Positions 7,681 through 41,269 of a DNA stretch of 64,000 nt are shown here, piece by piece. The translations under genes and the position numbers were made by a program. The notes beneath the pieces are model-generated. The model searched no databases and was not told where the DNA came from. It was given only the letters and a program-made list of their open reading frames with translations. Source of the stretch: Lacticaseibacillus yichunensis (GTDB taxonomy: Bacteria; Bacillota; Bacilli; Lactobacillales; Lactobacillaceae); contig NZ_RHOG01000004.1 in NCBI RefSeq assembly GCF_003946405.1, forward strand, positions 1 through 64,000, written 5' to 3'. Numbering within the stretch: the first letter of the stretch is position 1; each line of letters begins with the position of its first letter.

Positions 7681-7907
7681 GCATGATAGTTGAAAGTTCG
7701 CTGACTGAAGGGAGACATCGCATACCTGGGGGTCCACCGGGGATTGCGACGTTGACGGGCCTCTGAGGACTGTGACAGCTGGAGAGTTCTGAGATCGGCG
7801 ATTTCTCTTTTTGATGGGCGAAGCGCGAATTCGCGAACTCATGCAGCGGTGCGGTCCGGGCCGCTCTGTCGCCGGGGCGACCGGCTAGTGGCGTGGCGCC
7901 GGGGCGG

Positions 7908-8060
7908 CTGGCGCAGGCGAAAATTGGGCTCAGCCCTGAAATTATCGTTAGCGGCTCGGCCGCTAACGATAAGGCCGAGCTTGGAGACGGACGCGGCACC
8001 TTTCCGCGGGCGGCTCCAAGTCGTGCCCAGGGCGTTCCAGCCCGATTTTCGCCAAGCCAG
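7908..8060 (-). repeat. Family A structured repeat, copy A4 (diverged)
   Basis: It has the same plan as the 148-bp copies at 13138, 40491 and 41006. Outer arms contain GGCGAAAA and TTTTCGCC, then come GGGCTGGAACGCCC on the minus strand, a middle hairpin, a 13-bp hairpin (TTATCGTTAGCGG with its complement), and GGGCTGAGCCC. The paired sequences differ from the other copies while pairing is kept. The rest of the gap 7681-8194 shows no gene. Confidence 0.65.
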
Positions 8061-8149
8061 CAAGCCCCTGTGCCCGCCACTCGCCGTCGCCCCCAACGCA
8101 CCGCAACAACAGACGGCACCCGGCACCACACCAACCGCAAAAAGAGTGC

Positions 8150-11148: not shown

Positions 11149-11205
11149 GCCGCTGTCCGTTTTAGCTTAGATCACAGGCCTGGCCGCTGTCCGTTTTGGC
11201 TTGGA
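11149..11205. repeat. Pair of 23-bp direct repeats
   Basis: GCCGCTGTCCGTTTTAGCTT occurs at 11149, and again at 11183 with G for A at two places. The second copy folds into GGCCGCTGTCC/GGACGGCC. It lies between the GNAT promoter side and the rnjB terminator. Role unknown. Confidence 0.5.
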
Positions 11206-11235
11206 CGGCCACACACGGTCCTTATTCGTTGAAAG

Positions 11236-11265
11236 CAAAAACGCCAGCAAGGACTCGCTGACGTT
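11236..11265 (-). terminator. rnjB terminator
   Basis: AACGTCAGC and GCTGGCGTT form a 9-bp stem followed by a T-run, directly past the RNase J2 stop codon. Confidence 0.75.
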
Positions 11266-11271
11266 CGCGTT

Positions 11272-12954
11272 TTACTGACGTTTGGTGCTGTTTTGATTGA
11301 CTTCCATGATCACCGGCAAGATCACTGGCCGGCGCTTGGTCTGGTCAAACAGGAAATGGCTGAGGTCCTCGCGCACGGATTGTTTGAGCGTGCTCCAGTC
11401 GAATTCCTTGTTGTCGAGCTGCTTTTGAACGGTCTTGGTGACGAGATCGCCCGCTTCGGCCAACAGATCCTTGGAGGTCTTGATGTAAACGAAGCCGCGA
11501 CTTGAGATCTTCGGGGTGGACACGATGCGTTTTTTCTTGCGATCGATGGTGACCACCGCGATGAAAATACCGTCCTCGGCCAACATCTTGCGGTCGCGCA
11601 AGACGATGTTGCCGATGTCGCCGACCCCGATGCCGTCGATCATGGTGTTGCCGGCATCGACATGACCCGCGTTGTGCATCTTCCCTTTTTCATAAGAAAC
11701 AATGTCGCCAGGGTTCAGGATAAAAATATTCTGTGCCGGAATGCCAACTTCTTCCGCAATCTCCTGATGCGCCGCAAGCAAGCGGTATTCGCCTTGCACC
11801 GGAATGAGGTACTCCGGCTTGAGCAAGTTGAGCATCAACTGCAGGTCCGCCTTGTTGGCATGACCGGAGGCGTGGATGTCGTCCGAGATCGCCTTGACCT
11901 CGCCGCCTGCGCGGTAGATCATGTCGCGAGTCTTGGCCGCCATTGTCTCCATCGCATGGGAGATCGAGGTGGTAATGAAGACGAGGTCCCCTTCGTGAAT
12001 GTGGACCAAGCGATGACGCGAGGTCGCCATCCGCTGAAGGGACTTGAGTGGCTCGCCCATCCGGCCCGTTTCAAGAATGACAACTTCTTCATCCTTGAGG
12101 GTCTTGAGTTCTTTCGTCGACGCCAAGATGTCCGGTTTTGGCAAGGTGATGTCCTTCAACCGAATGGCGGTGCGGACGATCTTTTCCACTTCCCGGCCGG
12201 TCAAAACAACGCGGCGATTGGTGGCGGCGGCTGCGTCCAACACCTGCTGGATGCGTTCGATGTTGCTCGCAACGCTGGCCACGATCACGCGGCCCGGCTG
12301 ATACTTAATGGTCTCCTCGATCTTGGTCGCAATCTCGTGCTCACTCGCGTTTTGATAAGGCGACTCAGCGTTGGCGGAGTCGGATAACAGCGCGAGCACC
12401 TTGCCGTCCCCAATCTTCGCGAGGCGCGACAGGTCCGTTTGATACATCGGGCTTGCGCTTTGATCGAACTTGAAGTCGCCGGTGTAAACGATCTGGCCAC
12501 TCGGGGTCTCGATATCGATGCCTAGCGACCCAGGAATACTGTGGGTCGTGCGGAAAAACGAGACTTTGTTCTTGCCAAAATCGATTACGGAATGCTCATC
12601 AATGACATGATAGTCGTTGAATTTTTTCGCCTGCGGATTGCCAGCCGCGGCCAGCTTCGCAAGCGCGATGGTCAGCTCGGAGCCAAACACCGGAACCGGA
12701 TGCTCGCCGACAAAATATGGCAAGGCACCCACGGCATCCGCATGGCCGTGCGTGAGGAAAATGCCAGCGATCTTGTCTGCATTTTCTTCCAAATAGGTAA
12801 GATCCGGAATCACGATGTCGATGCCCAGCAGTTCGTTGTCCGGGTACTTCAGGCCGAAGTCCCCGACAAAAATTTGACCGTCCACGTCGATGGCGTACAT
12901 GTTTTTTCCGTTTTCGCGGACGCCACCGAGTGCGATCACTTTGATTTTGCTCAT
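11272..12954 (-). CDS. rnjB: Ribonuclease J2
   Basis: The 560-residue metallo-beta-lactamase/beta-CASP ribonuclease works with RNase J1 in mRNA decay and RNA maturation. The metal motif reads HGHADAVG (H69, H71, D73), with Ala at position 74 where RNase J1 has His. This is the usual signature of the weakly active J2 subunit. The beta-CASP segment (DGKVLALLSDSAN) and the C-terminal domain are present. J1 lies at 47277, so the two subunits are encoded ~34 kb apart. The gene stands alone with its own terminator. Confidence 0.93.
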   Translation of the reverse strand: MSKIKVIALGGVRENGKNMYAIDVDGQIFVGDFGLKYPDNELLGIDIVIPDLTYLEENADKIAGIFLTHGHADAVGALPYFVGEHPVPVFGSELTIALAKLAAAGNPQAKKFNDYHVIDEHSVIDFGKNKVSFFRTTHSIPGSLGIDIETPSGQIVYTGDFKFDQSASPMYQTDLSRLAKIGDGKVLALLSDSANAESPYQNASEHEIATKIEETIKYQPGRVIVASVASNIERIQQVLDAAAATNRRVVLTGREVEKIVRTAIRLKDITLPKPDILASTKELKTLKDEEVVILETGRMGEPLKSLQRMATSRHRLVHIHEGDLVFITTSISHAMETMAAKTRDMIYRAGGEVKAISDDIHASGHANKADLQLMLNLLKPEYLIPVQGEYRLLAAHQEIAEEVGIPAQNIFILNPGDIVSYEKGKMHNAGHVDAGNTMIDGIGVGDIGNIVLRDRKMLAEDGIFIAVVTIDRKKKRIVSTPKISSRGFVYIKTSKDLLAEAGDLVTKTVQKQLDNKEFDWSTLKQSVREDLSHFLFDQTKRRPVILPVIMEVNQNSTKRQ

Positions 12955-13137
12955 GTGAAATACACCTCAGAAAATTTTATTGAATTTTTCTCGAGACTCG
13001 CGACCGGCTTCAACGTGGGGCTTCGCCTGCCACCGCCATGGACGCGGACTCAACGATAAACTTCTGTTATTAGTGTACCACACTCCGAAATGCGTTGCGA
13101 AAAGTGGCATATTGTGTAAAAAAACGAGTAAACGCCC

Positions 13138-13285
13138 GGGTGGGCTCCGGCCGAAAATCGGCTGGAACGCTCCCAAGCAACTTTGAGCCCGCGGAAAGCG
13201 CGGTCTTAAAGCTTGCTTTCGGCGTAAGCGGCACAGCCGCCAACGCCGACGAGGGGGCTGAGCCGTTTTCGGCCGGAGCCCACCC
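13138..13285 (+). repeat. Family A structured repeat, copy A1
   Basis: The element is 148 bp. Its terminal arms (13138-13157 and 13266-13285) are exact 20-bp inverted copies. Inside are GGCTGGAACGCTCCCAAG, a hairpin around CTTTGAG/CTTAAAG, a hairpin GGCGT-GCGGC/GCCGC-ACGCC and GACGAGGGGGCTGAGCC. It lies between rnjB and the small membrane gene. Bases 12955-13137 and 13286-13482 hold no gene I can support. Confidence 0.8.
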
Positions 13286-13483
13286 TACATCAAGCATTAT
13301 AGATATGGCACTTTTGGCCGTCATTTCGCTGGATCGGTACGCTGTCATTTCGCGGGTCGGAGCCGGGACGTCGTGTGTCCCGAATTGTGTTGTGCTTGCT
13401 AGATATGTCCACCTCTCCTATCGATCTCGGCGAATTGAGAAGTCCAATCATTACCAGTTCTATTATTCCCCAGAATCAAAACA

Positions 13484-15439: not shown

Positions 15440-16465
15440 TTACCGATGTTGCCCGCAATATTTCAAGACAAATAATTCAAACGCCAATTCCTTGTCGATG
15501 CGCCCAGTCTTCATAGCCGCCTCGGTGTCGACGAGCCCCAGATACGCGGCCCGCAGCGCAGAGCCTTCTACACCACGGCTTTCACGCATCGCCATTTCGA
15601 TGCGGAACGGGGCGGCTTTCAGCGCCGCCGCAATGCCGCCCTGGTCGTAGCCTTTTCGCATCAGAATCTGCACCTGAAGCAACAGCCGAAATTGGCTGAG
15701 AAGCAGGCTGTTGAGCTTGATCGGTTCCTCTTTTTGCAAAAGGAGGTCGCGATAAATGGCCAGTGCCACATCGGCCCGCCGCCGAACCACCGCGTTGACC
15801 ATGTCAAAGACCCGGTCCGTCAGTTGCTTGGGCACCAGCGCGCTCACCGCCTGTTCATCCAGCGCGCCGCCATTTTGCGCGTACAGTTCCAATTTTGGCA
15901 GCTCATGCATCATGACGGAATAATTGGCGTTGGTGCGCTGGGTGAAGGCCGCCATGCCGTCTCGCGTGAGCGCAAGTCCCTGCTTTTTCAGCTCGCGATT
16001 GATGGCCGCGGTGGCCTCCCCGCTTTTCATCAATTGGGCATCGACCGTCACGCTATTTTTCACCAGCGCGGTCGTGAGCTTCTTGCGCCGATCGAGTTTC
16101 GCGTAAGGCGCGACAATGACCATCACCGTTGACGGCGCCGGATCCTTGAAGTAGCGCTCAAGGCCGGCGAGGTCATGCTCGATCTTGCCAGCGTTTGTTT
16201 CACCAGTCAAAAAATAGGGCTGCGTGATCACGACTTCGCGGAGGTCGCCAAAAAACGGCTGCGAGGTGGCATCATCCAGCGCCACGCCGACCGGGGTTTG
16301 GCGCATGTCATAACTAGCCATGTTCATCGTCTGCTGGTCGTCCGGAATAAGCGCAGCCAACGCGGCCAGAGCCTCTTGTTGAAGGGCCGTTTCTTCGCCC
16401 AGCAATAGGACGAGCGGTGGTACCTTGCCTGTCTTCAATTGTTTTGCCAAGTCCGCAACGCGCAT
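15440..16465 (-). CDS. holA: DNA polymerase III subunit delta
   Basis: The 341-residue protein is the clamp-loader delta subunit that opens the sliding clamp. It has the VPPLVLLLGEETALQQEAL start, the YFKDPAPSTVMVIVAP strand and the conserved C-terminal three-helix region (LLLSQFRLLLQVQ). ATG 16465 is chosen because AGGAGG lies 5 nt upstream. It begins 20 nt after the comEC stop, as in most Firmicutes, and is probably part of the comEA-comEC transcript. Confidence 0.93.
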   Translation of the reverse strand: MRVADLAKQLKTGKVPPLVLLLGEETALQQEALAALAALIPDDQQTMNMASYDMRQTPVGVALDDATSQPFFGDLREVVITQPYFLTGETNAGKIEHDLAGLERYFKDPAPSTVMVIVAPYAKLDRRKKLTTALVKNSVTVDAQLMKSGEATAAINRELKKQGLALTRDGMAAFTQRTNANYSVMMHELPKLELYAQNGGALDEQAVSALVPKQLTDRVFDMVNAVVRRRADVALAIYRDLLLQKEEPIKLNSLLLSQFRLLLQVQILMRKGYDQGGIAAALKAAPFRIEMAMRESRGVEGSALRAAYLGLVDTEAAMKTGRIDKELAFELFVLKYCGQHR

Positions 16466-16485
16466 GATGGCCTCCTTCAGAAAGA

Positions 16486-18651
16486 TCACTTGCCGGCTGC
16501 TGCGCCGGTCAATTGGGTGAAAACTTGCTGGCCGCTAACCCAGATCATTCCGCGGTCGGCGGTATTCAAAACTGGCACCCCCTGCGCCGCAAACGTTTCA
16601 AGCGTCTCTTCATGGGGGTGGCCGTACCGGTTATTGACGCCGGCCGAGATCAGCGCCAATTTGGGGTCGATCTGGGCGATAAACGCCGGGTCGCTGGAGG
16701 TGCGTGAGCCGTGGTGGCCGACTTTGAGCATGTCGACTCGGCCGATCAAAGGCGCGATCTTGGCCTCCACCGCCCGGTCCGCATCGCCGGTCAACAGCCA
16801 AAAATACTTATCTATCTTACCATAGAGCACCAGCGAGTCGGCGTTTTTCTCCTTGGCGTCTGCGGACTCTGGCGCGACAACTTTGAGTTTGAGTGGTCCC
16901 ACGGTCAGGATGGCCGGCGCAAGCAGTGGCGTGTGGCTGGCGACCTGACCGGCTTTGGCGGCCAAAATATAGCGGTGGCGCGCGGCCAGCGTGGTGGTGA
17001 CCAGCCGGCGAACTGGCATCAGTTGCGCCAACAGGCCCGCATCGCCCACGTGATCCGCATCCGCATGCGTCAACACCAGTATATCGAGGTGGTTCAGCCC
17101 GCGGGCATGCAAATAATTGACGATCGCCCGTTTGGCTGGCGGCTCACGCACTGTGCCAAAGCCCCGTCCGCCGGTGTCCACCAACACCGCCGCCTGCTTG
17201 AAGGGTGCCTCAATCAAAATGGCATCCCCTTGCCCCACATCAAACAACGTGACGCGCCACTGCGGATGGACATTGGCCACGAGCCACGCCGCCACCAGCC
17301 AGGCGATGAGCCATCTTTTCTGCCGGCGCGCCAAACTGACCAGTACGACCCCGACGCCCAGCACCGCAAGCGCCGCCGGGACCGCCCCGAAGATCACGTC
17401 CCCCGGCAGTGCCGTCAGCGCGTGCAACCCCTTCTCGCCTAGCTGTAAGCCCGGTTCCAGCGCCTCGGTCCATGGGCCGCCAGGAAAAATCAGGGTCACC
17501 AGCACCAGCGGCATCACGGCCAATTCAAATACCGGCACCAGGAGCCAATTGAAAAAGACCTGAAGTAAATGAAACCGAAACGTGTGCGCCAAGATCACGG
17601 GCAGCCCAATCAGCCCCAGGTGAAAATTGCGCTTCAGCCGCGGACCGGCTGGCAGGAGATACAAGGCCCCCGCGAGCAAATAGGTCAACTGGCCGCCAAA
17701 CGTGTGCAGAATATACGGCTGAAGTGCGAGGTTCCCCATCAAGACCAGCGAAAAGCCATCCAGGCGTGACAGGGGCAACCGCATGCGCGCCGTCAACAAT
17801 CTGACCTCACTGAGCCACACCGCCCGCACGATGCCGGCCCCGCCGCCGAGCAGAAGTGGCAACAGTGGCAACAGCGCGATCAGCGTCCACTCCGCCGCCT
17901 CTTTGGGAATGCGCAGGCGGTCCGTCAGCCAGATCAGCCCCGCAAGCAGTGCAAATAAATGCAGCCCGGACACGGAAAAGAGATGGAAAATGCCCAACTG
18001 CACGAGGTCCTCGCGCATGTCGTCCAGTTCTTCGTCGACCTGCCCCAGCAGCAAGCCTTTTGCATAGCGTCGAATCGTTTCCGGCAGCTGCTGGACCCGC
18101 GCCAACAATTTTGCCCGAAGCCCTGTGAGATGCTCGGTCAAGGTGCGCGGGGCAAATGCGGTGACCACCAGCGCCTGACGCGGACTCTCATAGGCCAGTC
18201 CGTCGTGAAACCAAACATACTGCGCATAATCAAATTCATATTGATTGCGCGCCGGCTGTAATCTTGTGAGGTCACCATGCCACTGCACCACTTGCGGCTG
18301 GGTCGTTGCGCGCAGGCGGTCGGCCTCTTCTTTGGTGACCACGGCACTCCCGCTCACTGGGACGCCATTCGCCGCGATGCCGGTATAGCGCAGCAGTGTG
18401 TCTGTACCACCCCAGTTCGTCGGGAGCACAATCACCGACCCGCTTGGTTTGGGCGGATCTCGGGTGGCCGCCGCCCCGCGCCAGCCAACGCTCATGCCCA
18501 CCACAAATAGACCCAGCATCAGCGGCCACTTCGCCCAACGATTTTTCACCAACGCCCAGCCGACCAGTACGGCCCCGATCCACCACGGCTCCAGCCACAG
18601 GTACAACCCGCCGGCGAAAAAGGCAGCCGCAAATACCCAGCGGCGCGTCAT
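16486..18651 (-). CDS. comEC: DNA uptake channel protein ComEC/Rec2
   Basis: The 721-residue protein carries single-stranded DNA across the membrane during transformation. It has N-terminal membrane helices and an OB-like DUF4131 region, then the Competence domain with many helices (LFHLFSVSGLHLFALLAG). A C-terminal metallo-beta-lactamase domain has the metal motif LTHADADHVGDAG and a second LKVGHHGSRTSSD. It appears intact. It overlaps comEA by 4 nt. The dCMP deaminase gene (comEB) often found between them is absent. Confidence 0.95.
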   Translation of the reverse strand: MTRRWVFAAAFFAGGLYLWLEPWWIGAVLVGWALVKNRWAKWPLMLGLFVVGMSVGWRGAAATRDPPKPSGSVIVLPTNWGGTDTLLRYTGIAANGVPVSGSAVVTKEEADRLRATTQPQVVQWHGDLTRLQPARNQYEFDYAQYVWFHDGLAYESPRQALVVTAFAPRTLTEHLTGLRAKLLARVQQLPETIRRYAKGLLLGQVDEELDDMREDLVQLGIFHLFSVSGLHLFALLAGLIWLTDRLRIPKEAAEWTLIALLPLLPLLLGGGAGIVRAVWLSEVRLLTARMRLPLSRLDGFSLVLMGNLALQPYILHTFGGQLTYLLAGALYLLPAGPRLKRNFHLGLIGLPVILAHTFRFHLLQVFFNWLLVPVFELAVMPLVLVTLIFPGGPWTEALEPGLQLGEKGLHALTALPGDVIFGAVPAALAVLGVGVVLVSLARRQKRWLIAWLVAAWLVANVHPQWRVTLFDVGQGDAILIEAPFKQAAVLVDTGGRGFGTVREPPAKRAIVNYLHARGLNHLDILVLTHADADHVGDAGLLAQLMPVRRLVTTTLAARHRYILAAKAGQVASHTPLLAPAILTVGPLKLKVVAPESADAKEKNADSLVLYGKIDKYFWLLTGDADRAVEAKIAPLIGRVDMLKVGHHGSRTSSDPAFIAQIDPKLALISAGVNNRYGHPHEETLETFAAQGVPVLNTADRGMIWVSGQQVFTQLTGAAAGK

Positions 18652-39163: not shown

Positions 39164-39976
39164 TCAGCCCAAGGCCCACGAGACTGGGTCCTGGTTGTAA
39201 CGGAATGCGGCTTCTTTCAACTGATGCCGCGTGTGACCAACCAGGGTCATGTTTGCCATGAAGGCAGCGAGGGCAGTCATTGCACCCTTTACATTTGTGT
39301 TCCTTGTCACTTGCAGCTGGATGCGCTTGAGGCCGATTGATACAGCCTGCACACCCGCGTTCAGCGTCCGCCCTGCGAACACCAAGATCAGGTGCCCCAG
39401 CGCTTTGCCAAAAACGCGGCGGTTGTCTGTGGTGCCCAGCAAAGCGTCTGCCATTTGGGCGGCGAAAACATCGCACCCAGTGGCGGACACTTGCAGCTGC
39501 CCATCTGCCAGGGCGATTGCGCCTGCCGGCAAAACAGTGGCGTTGCCATCGACCATCGTCAGCAACTTCAGCCAAACATTCCGCCGAACCGCCATGTCGC
39601 CAAGACCATCGACCGGCAAAACATCGCCTGCCGTGATCTGCAGGACATCGCCGACAACCAGTTCCTGAACCGTGATCGCCCGAAGCAAGCCATCCCGCAC
39701 AACCAAAACAGTGCGGTCCTCTTGCTTGAGTCCTTCGAACCAACGGGTAAATGCCACATGAGCCGCGCCCATGCCAATCAAAATCATCATCACCAACGCC
39801 AACGCGACCAATGGCTGGTCGAAAAGCCCCATGCAAACCAGCCCAGCACCCAGTCCCATCATCAGGATGGAGCGGCGCTGCTGCTGCAGGGTGATCGCTG
39901 TGTTGGCTTGGCGCAAGTCGTACTTTGCTTTTTGAACCTGATAACGCGTCAGGCCACTTTGTACTTGCATCAACAT
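39164..39976 (-). CDS. Truncated P-type-ATPase-like membrane protein
   Basis: The 270-residue protein has two membrane helices (residues ~36-52 and ~56-76) followed by a segment typical of the start of a P-type ATPase actuator domain (VVRDGLLRAITVQELVVGDVL to AGDVLPVDG, ~90-124). The TGES loop, the phosphorylated DKTGT and the ATP-binding domain are all missing. The C-terminal half shows only weak hydrophobic segments. It cannot pump ions as an ATPase. It may be a decayed pump or a small regulatory protein. The ATG has GAGAGGAG upstream, and an operator-like palindrome lies 54 nt before it. Confidence 0.6.
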   Translation of the reverse strand: MLMQVQSGLTRYQVQKAKYDLRQANTAITLQQQRRSILMMGLGAGLVCMGLFDQPLVALALVMMILIGMGAAHVAFTRWFEGLKQEDRTVLVVRDGLLRAITVQELVVGDVLQITAGDVLPVDGLGDMAVRRNVWLKLLTMVDGNATVLPAGAIALADGQLQVSATGCDVFAAQMADALLGTTDNRRVFGKALGHLILVFAGRTLNAGVQAVSIGLKRIQLQVTRNTNVKGAMTALAAFMANMTLVGHTRHQLKEAAFRYNQDPVSWALG

Positions 39977-40044: not shown

Positions 40045-40490
40045 GAAGTGGCGGCACAATAACAAACCTTCGGGGATCGCCATTGTCGCTACTATTACCA
40101 TCGATCGCATTTGTCATTCTACCCACCACCTTTCATTCACTTTCCGGAGGCACGTTTTCGTTGCTGGCGCTAGCTTCCAACAAAAAACGCGCACACCAAT
40201 TGAGTATGCACGCGATACTTGCATCCCAATCGTTTAGTTTTAGCACTATACGCCTAGAAGGAGAACTTCAGCGGCATTAGCACAAGCCTTTATGGGCAAG
40301 CGCTGCTGACTCATTGGCATCTCTGGATGTTTCTGAGCAGTCGCATTGTTCGTATAGGAGCCTCACCTAACGGAAAGCACTGGATTTAATTTCAACTAAC
40401 ATATTATCAGTGAATGCACGCAATGTCAAGGATGAGCCCTTTCTTCTTCTTTCAGAAAAACGGAAGGAAAAGCGAAGCGTCTACGCACAC

Positions 40491-40638
40491 GGGGGTGATC
40501 CGGGTAGAAATTGGCTGGAACGCTCCCAAGTGACTTTAAGCCCGCACAGGCCACGGTCTTAAAGCTCACTTTCGGTGTAAGCGGCAGAGCCGCTAACACC
40601 GACGAGGGGGCTGAGCCATTTCTACCCGGAGCACCCCC
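40491..40638 (+). repeat. Family A structured repeat, copy A2
   Basis: It is exactly 148 bp, like A1. The terminal arms (40491-40510, 40619-40638) pair at 19 of 20 positions although their sequence differs from A1 (GGGTAGAAA/TTTCTACCC instead of GGCCGAAAA/TTTTCGGCC). The central GGCTGGAACGCTCCCAAG and GACGAGGGGGCTGAGCC are identical to A1. Bases 40045-40490 hold no gene I can support. Confidence 0.8.
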
Positions 40639-41005
40639 TTAAATCCAACACTCAATTGATCTGGCGGAAGGACCATCGCTGTACCTTTGTCATAAGGCCG
40701 TCTCAATCTGACATTGAGGTAATTGAATCAAAATTAGTTTTGCAAACTCAGCATCCGTCTATCAGATGCGACCGCAGACTCTAATCGCCTTGCTCAAGTC
40801 GAAAAAGGTTGCAAGTTTGGCTCATCTGGAAAGCACCATAGTTATCACGAATACCAGCGTTCAGGCCCAGCCTCCCATAATTTCCCGTAGCGGTTATGGC
40901 CAGCAAATGTACAACTTGTGAAAATGCTCTGTCCAATGCCAGCAACAAGGAGGTATCAAGCCACATGCCCGCCTGTAACGTATGTGGCTTGAGAACTGGA
41001 TCAGA
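40639..41005. other. AT-rich spacer between inverted A copies
   Basis: This 367-bp stretch is AT-richer than its surroundings and is bracketed by A2 and A3 in opposite orientation. A minus-strand frame at 40781-40966 (61 codons) has no ribosome site and no family match, so it may be a gene remnant. Confidence 0.4.
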
Positions 41006-41153
41006 GGGTGGGCTCCGGCCGAAAATGGCTCAGCCCCCTCGTCGGTGTTGACGGCTCTGCCGTCTACACCGAAAGCAAGCTTTGAGACCGCGCACTTTGC
41101 GGGCTCAAAGTTGCTTGGGAGCGTTCCAGCCACTTTTCGGCTGGAGCCCACCC
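41006..41153 (-). repeat. Family A structured repeat, copy A3
   Basis: It is 148 bp in the orientation opposite to A2. The arms 41006-41025 and 41134-41153 pair at 19 of 20 positions plus one G-T pair. The internal hairpins are CTTTGAG/CTCAAAG and GGTGT-GACGGC/GCCGTC-ACACC, with changes matched on both sides relative to A1 and A2. Confidence 0.8.
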
Positions 41154-41269
41154 GGGGGGTTACGCCAATTTACGAGTCTGTTTTCGTTAAAACCGCATGG
41201 GAAACTGGTTTGACAAGCCTCATCGTTGCGCGCATCATTTGTCTTAGTATTCTCACAAGGAGGCTGCTT

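Follow-up and report, generated by a model that had tools for sequence, protein, structure and literature searches.

The four elements A1 to A4 of the window (the whole stretch of 64,000 nucleotides that was analysed) belong to what is apparently a large and so far undescribed family of non-coding repeats of the Lactobacillaceae, whose copies share almost no sequence and retain the same Y-shaped fold. The best reading of these modules is that they are a new type of REPIN/BOX-like structured DNA repeat. That A1 to A4 are interspersed DNA modules which are copied between loci, and which are read in their folded form by a putative enzyme, is a proposition that we regard as evenly balanced.

Module A1 (13131-13300, forward strand; 188.2 bits) stands alone, upstream of an RNase J-family gene, and its core (13138-13285) is accompanied by a conserved outer CGCCC and an inner TACATCAAGCATT flank. 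A2 (40484-40654, forward strand, core 40491-40638; 186.7 bits) and A3 (40990-41160, reverse strand, core 41006-41153; 188.6 bits) are the left and right members of a convergent pair and jointly form a 166-nt inverted repeat (79%); between the modelled modules lies a spacer of 335 bp (40655-40989), in which a long ORF was not assigned. As an earlier note on this DNA had described, the cores of A1 to A3 all measure exactly 148 bp and bear inverted arms of about 20 bp, with a complementarity of 100% in A1 (20 nt) and of 95% in A2 (21 nt) and A3 (20 nt). The diverged fourth copy mentioned there is real: A4 (7890-8069, reverse strand, core 7907-8061) was scored at 81.2 bits by model R1, which had been built without A4, and at 116.6 bits by model R2. 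It is located 134 bp behind tuf and is co-directional with this gene, and its form resembles one that is common in other genera. Next to the A2/A3 pair, an M-box magnesium riboswitch was detected (40218-40381, reverse strand; 122.6 bits) upstream of an ORF of 270 amino acids (39164-39976, reverse strand). This ORF matches only the start of an E1-E2 domain and resembles a truncated P-type ATPase; behind an intact M-box, it is probably a pseudogene.

All four modules can fold strongly into the same shape, with minimum folding energies of -93 to -109 kcal/mol for A1 to A3 (z about -10 to -11) and of -87 kcal/mol for A4 (z -7.2). The outer stem P1 is followed inwards by the short stem GGCT/AGCC, by the internal loop GGAAC/TG, which is asymmetric, and by the stem P3 (GCTCCC/GGGGGC); two hairpins complete the fold, HP1 and HP2, which carry a fixed C.T and a fixed A.A mismatch, respectively. 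In A3, one outer arm of helix P1 (41006-41025) pairs with 41134-41153. The conserved 3' block GACGAGGGGGCTGAGCC (41027-41043, reverse strand) supplies the 3' strands of P3 and P2 as well as the loop TG, which is unpaired; the conserved 5' block GGCTGGAACGCTCCCAAG (41114-41131, reverse strand) supplies the 5' strands of these helices and the unpaired GGAAC. When up to 3 mismatches are allowed, the window contains 3 and 4 occurrences of the two blocks, as against chance expectations of 0.06 and 0.20. Their conservation, which had been noted before, is therefore upheld; their description as single-stranded-looking is not, as most of their letters pair (GGCT with AGCC, GCTCCC with GGGGGC) and the only ones without a partner are GGAAC, TG and a few mismatches. 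A kink-turn was considered by inspection and rejected: the sizes fit, but the G.A pairs do not.

The change of arms and hairpins between copies with retention of pairing, also described in the earlier note, was seen on two scales. Among 17 copies within the genome that contains the window (G000), 23 of the 61 base pairs were altered on both sides. A set of 150 copies drawn from many genera had both-sided changes in 60 of the 61 pairs, which was equalled by none of 500 shuffles, and most pairs pass through all four Watson-Crick types. This alignment was fitted to the model and favours pairing, and a control with slid partners was therefore added: paired cells amounted to 92.7%, compared with 34-43% after sliding. 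Core identity was 74% within species and 60% between species (arms, 49% and 34%). The most conserved letters are not Watson-Crick paired, namely GGAAC, the C/T of HP1, the A/A of HP2 and the loop TG, which are kept in 93-99% of the 150 copies. Because these letters are the most conserved ones while the helices covary, the folded shape is under selection: the shape, mismatches included, is conserved, and the paired letters drift as pairs.

Further copies exist in relatives. The covariance model R2 matched 37 of 151 Lactobacillaceae genomes in 12 of 40 genera. There was no match in genomes of the same order outside the Lactobacillaceae, and none in 399 other genomes of the class. Scoring in these surveys covered the top 7-18 candidates of each genome, so that very diverged copies could escape. 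With an exact pattern, the core of the module was detected in Levilactobacillus, Companilactobacillus, Lacticaseibacillus, Lapidilactobacillus, Lactiplantibacillus, Schleiferilactobacillus and Limosilactobacillus. The occurrence of the family is patchy, with many species of a positive genus lacking it. About 40 copies are scattered through the intergenic DNA of the 2.56-Mb genome G000, and the richest Lactobacillaceae genomes contain 103 to at least 150 modules each, the numbers from the larger scans being capped. Rfam, searched with gathering and relaxed thresholds, matched only the neighbouring M-box and none of the modules. A description of these repeats in lactobacilli was not found in the open-access literature, nor did a match to a known MITE, which the earlier note had named as a refuting finding, emerge from the literature searched. 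In another Lacticaseibacillus genome (G009), two loci (L072 and L086) held 3-4 modules within about 1 kb, some of them in tandem on the same strand. In Lapidilactobacillus bayanensis, half-modules composed of an outer arm and GGAACGTAGTGGGCRTTGC recurred directly outside full units, joined to AAACCAGAACAGTAGAAACTAAAACTG (L141, L122, L161 and L125).

Close neighbours are convergent in 71 of 72 cases overall. This holds for 45 of 46 neighbours less than 800 bp apart in many other genera, with spacers of 28-437 bp, and for all 26 close neighbours of one near-complete genome. In G000 and other Lacticaseibacillus genomes most copies are solo, though A2 and A3 are paired, and remnants of a partner beside the solo copies of G000 were found only occasionally, at about background level. 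In 22 of 30 cases in G000 (13131-13300 and L272-L291), the module has its outer side turned towards the start of the adjacent gene, a bias that was not seen in other genera. No consistent gene partner was found among the neighbours, which were taken from ORF calls.

The evolution of the modules can be followed at orthologous sites. The genome of L. mingshuiensis (G021) is 93-94% identical to G000 around A2 and A3, and there the sequence between the left arm of A2 and the right arm of A3 (41134-41153) is absent, with a 7-bp repeat, GGCTGGA, at the junction. This site is a deletion scar with both outer arms left and not an empty site. Comparable losses affected a second pair (C56) and a single module (C11, lost in G000), so that deletion scars were found at three sites; pairs and modules are lost through deletion between short repeats. 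Among 14 orthologous copies of the two species, the outer arms have mostly been passed on together with their locus, and the interiors differ blockwise. Loop variants swap between the species, and copies that are otherwise little altered differ by an extra hairpin of 47 bp, which one species has and the other lacks (L279 versus L260, L290 versus L258). In the HP1 stems of these copies, 40 pairs were changed on both sides, compared with one-sided changes giving 11 G.T and 8 A.C, and all eight combinations of the loop, HP1 and 47-bp insert variants were found. The blockwise swapping of interiors together with the full set of combinations amounts to recombination between copies, i.e. concerted evolution. 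Such an exchange alters both sides of a helix without intermediates, so that covariation alone suggests more independent compensations than took place; the diversity across genera still requires selection for shape. Of 57 copies from G000 and G021, about a quarter have the loop variant V2, GACCGNAGTAGAGCGGA in place of AACGCTCCC (e.g. L284:320-498, L290:4774-4953 and L276:10718-10875). This variant disrupts the inner helix P3, which is a point against the main reading given above. Other hairpin-rich intergenic repeats (L265, about 16326-16501; L282, about 11154-11391) are polymorphic between the two genomes and apparently belong to different families.

In the mechanism proposed here, the basic unit would be two modules facing one another across a short spacer. 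Each module would fold into a Y on one strand, or would be extruded as such from supercoiled DNA, and the folded shape may then be read by a putative cellular or mobile-element enzyme. Either the fold might be cleaved or replication might stall there, and repair from another copy would follow; such a repair would both spread and homogenise the family and would result in a non-autonomous, REPIN/BOX-like behaviour. The capacity to fold, the conserved mismatches, the arrangement in pairs, the exchange of interiors and the deletions are observed; we infer the enzyme, the extrusion within the cell and the direction of benefit, and the odds that this enzyme is new are fair. It is conceivable, though we tend to doubt it, that Y-folded DNA modules in facing pairs even constitute a new class of bacterial element, the interiors of which are copied between loci by a putative enzyme that reads shape and mismatches; the population of sites would then evolve jointly despite the turnover of its sequence.

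A functional structured RNA, either trans-acting or a leader or 3'-end, which was spread by duplication and the fold of which is selected in the transcript, is a somewhat unlikely alternative. Conserved unpaired letters and mismatches beside drifting helices are reminiscent of structured RNA, one P3 pair keeps a U.G wobble in 58 of 139 copies, and the position of A4 behind tuf as well as that of the solo copies at gene starts in G000 would suit a transcript. A helix selected as RNA tolerates G.U above A.C, whereas a helix selected as DNA, on either strand, treats both alike. Over all pairs of the module helices, 299 G.T and 262 A.C were counted, and 187 of the G.T come from two columns (the G/T beside the internal loop and the conserved T.G in P3); without these columns, about 112-113 G.T stand against about 258 A.C. 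Restriction to pairs that are at least 70% Watson-Crick gave 96 G.T and 204 A.C. The M-box riboswitch served as control and showed 112 G.T and 4 A.C over all pairs in 20 sequences of the genus, with a structure predicted by RNAalifold, a method that favours G.U. As G.T is no commoner than A.C in the modules, folded DNA is favoured over RNA, and the base pairs do not look like those of a forward-strand RNA. The excess of A.C over G.T on the forward strand would suit a reverse-strand RNA, but either strand remains far below the M-box control. The inverted pairs, moreover, place a forward and a reversed copy on each strand, and the missing Rfam match and the missing gene partner likewise speak against this explanation. 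The multi-helix RNA or protein-bound DNA cruciform suggested in the earlier note is thus retained in part: the multi-helix fold with compensatory change is strongly supported, and the RNA option is disfavoured by the G.T counts, the inverted pairs and the exchange of whole hairpins. These observations suggest that the shape is important at the level of DNA more than at that of RNA; an RNA function of the modules is less likely, and folded or extruded DNA is favoured.

If the shape matters in DNA, it could also serve the host. A chromosomal site for the control of the nucleoid, of replication or of recombination, at which a host protein binds folded or cruciform DNA and which is not selfish, would agree with the intergenic position, the high copy number and the conserved shape. 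It would likewise agree with the restriction to chromosomes: no module matched in plasmids, phages or viral contigs, which is unusual for an active mobile element. In one Lactobacillaceae genome of 2.5 Mb (G172), 54 of 77 module loci are situated in the chromosome half nearest base 1, which amounts to an origin-proximal enrichment (p 5e-4), provided that the origin lies at base 1. No positional bias was present in three Lacticaseibacillus genomes, however, and a replication-strand bias of solo modules was weak and inconsistent between genomes. The absence of modules from many species of the same genus and the loss of entire pairs between close species also argue against such a service to the host, which we consider unlikely.

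It is still less probable that the modules are classic MITEs or REP/REPIN sequences which a known type of IS or RAYT transposase mobilises. In REPINs the inverted doublet is the apparent unit, and singlets are apparent remnants (PMC3116915, PMC8266576); the inverted pairs and apparent remnant singlets of the modules parallel this (PMC3116915), and their outer ends are conserved within species. The modules, however, have about 150 nt and three helices, compared with 20-40 nt. A Y1/RAYT gene (PF01797) was absent from 21 of the 37 positive genomes, one of them with 103 modules, and is therefore not required. A linked transposase that recognises the 20-bp ends, which had been proposed as a search, was not found: a survey of 80 loci of up to 8 kb revealed no recurrent transposase close to the modules, ORF clustering in their vicinity yielded only common transporter-type and other paralogue families, and distant convergent modules enclose ordinary genes. 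Direct repeats at 42 units were not above mismatched controls and thus gave no sign of a target-site duplication, and a clean insertion with an empty site was not found at the compared loci. The negative results on insertion sites, duplications, transposases and Y1 genes are also points against the main reading of a repeat that spreads in folded form. An integron integrase was not detected above the TIGR02249 cut-off in any of the 151 family genomes, while general tyrosine recombinases match this model weakly everywhere. Finally, a neutral by-product of quasi-palindrome correction during replication, which would keep pairing without selection for shape and would explain the large surplus of both-sided over one-sided changes, an outcome expected of template-switch correction, is highly improbable, since correction erases mismatches, yet C.T, A.A and GGAAC/TG are the most conserved features across genera.

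The modules resemble several known systems, from each of which they also differ. Like REP/REPIN sequences (BIMEs), they are high-copy, intergenic, palindromic repeats with inverted doublets as the usual unit. Unlike those linked to RAYT/TnpA-REP, they form a three-helix structure of 148 nt with internal mismatches instead of a hairpin of 20-40 nt, and most of the positive genomes (21 of 37) have no Y1/RAYT gene. The BOX, RUP and SPRITE repeats of S. pneumoniae are small, modular, structured intergenic repeats and likely old non-autonomous mobile elements (PMC3049150). As with BOX, the modules occur in Lactobacillales and vary between copies (two loop variants, hairpin variants and the optional 47-bp hairpin); BOX is described at the species level, whereas the modules span about a dozen genera by their fold, with very different sequences, and are paired. 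Neisserial Correia elements have up to about 150 bp and are bounded by inverted repeats of 26 bp (PMC3049150). In contrast to these and other MITEs, the module arms vary by locus yet stay paired, and no target-site duplication was seen. In attC sites, which act as folded DNA, shape and extrahelical bases outweigh sequence (PMC3053210); the modules would be similar in being read by their shape. The modules, unlike attC, have three helices, are paired in inverted orientation and occur without gene-cassette arrays or an integron integrase in the 151 genomes. By the features that define REP/RAYT, classic MITEs and attC, the modules belong to none of them. The inverted terminal repeat of parvoviruses (AAV) is a self-complementary Y- or T-shaped end of about 145 nt with two inner hairpins, and it forms the inverted ends of the unit. 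The modules resemble it in length, in the two inner hairpins and in their inverted placement at the unit ends, but they are situated in bacterial chromosomes, enclose spacers of tens to a few hundred bp and have no replication gene.

The covariation of the modules is among the clearest signals possible for a non-coding bacterial element, and it shows that covariation alone should not be filed as RNA structure without a check of G.U against A.C. Lactobacilli are food and probiotic organisms. In their modules the shape is kept while the sequence turns over, which makes the family a natural test bed for the reading of DNA secondary structure in the cell and for the joint evolution of repeats.
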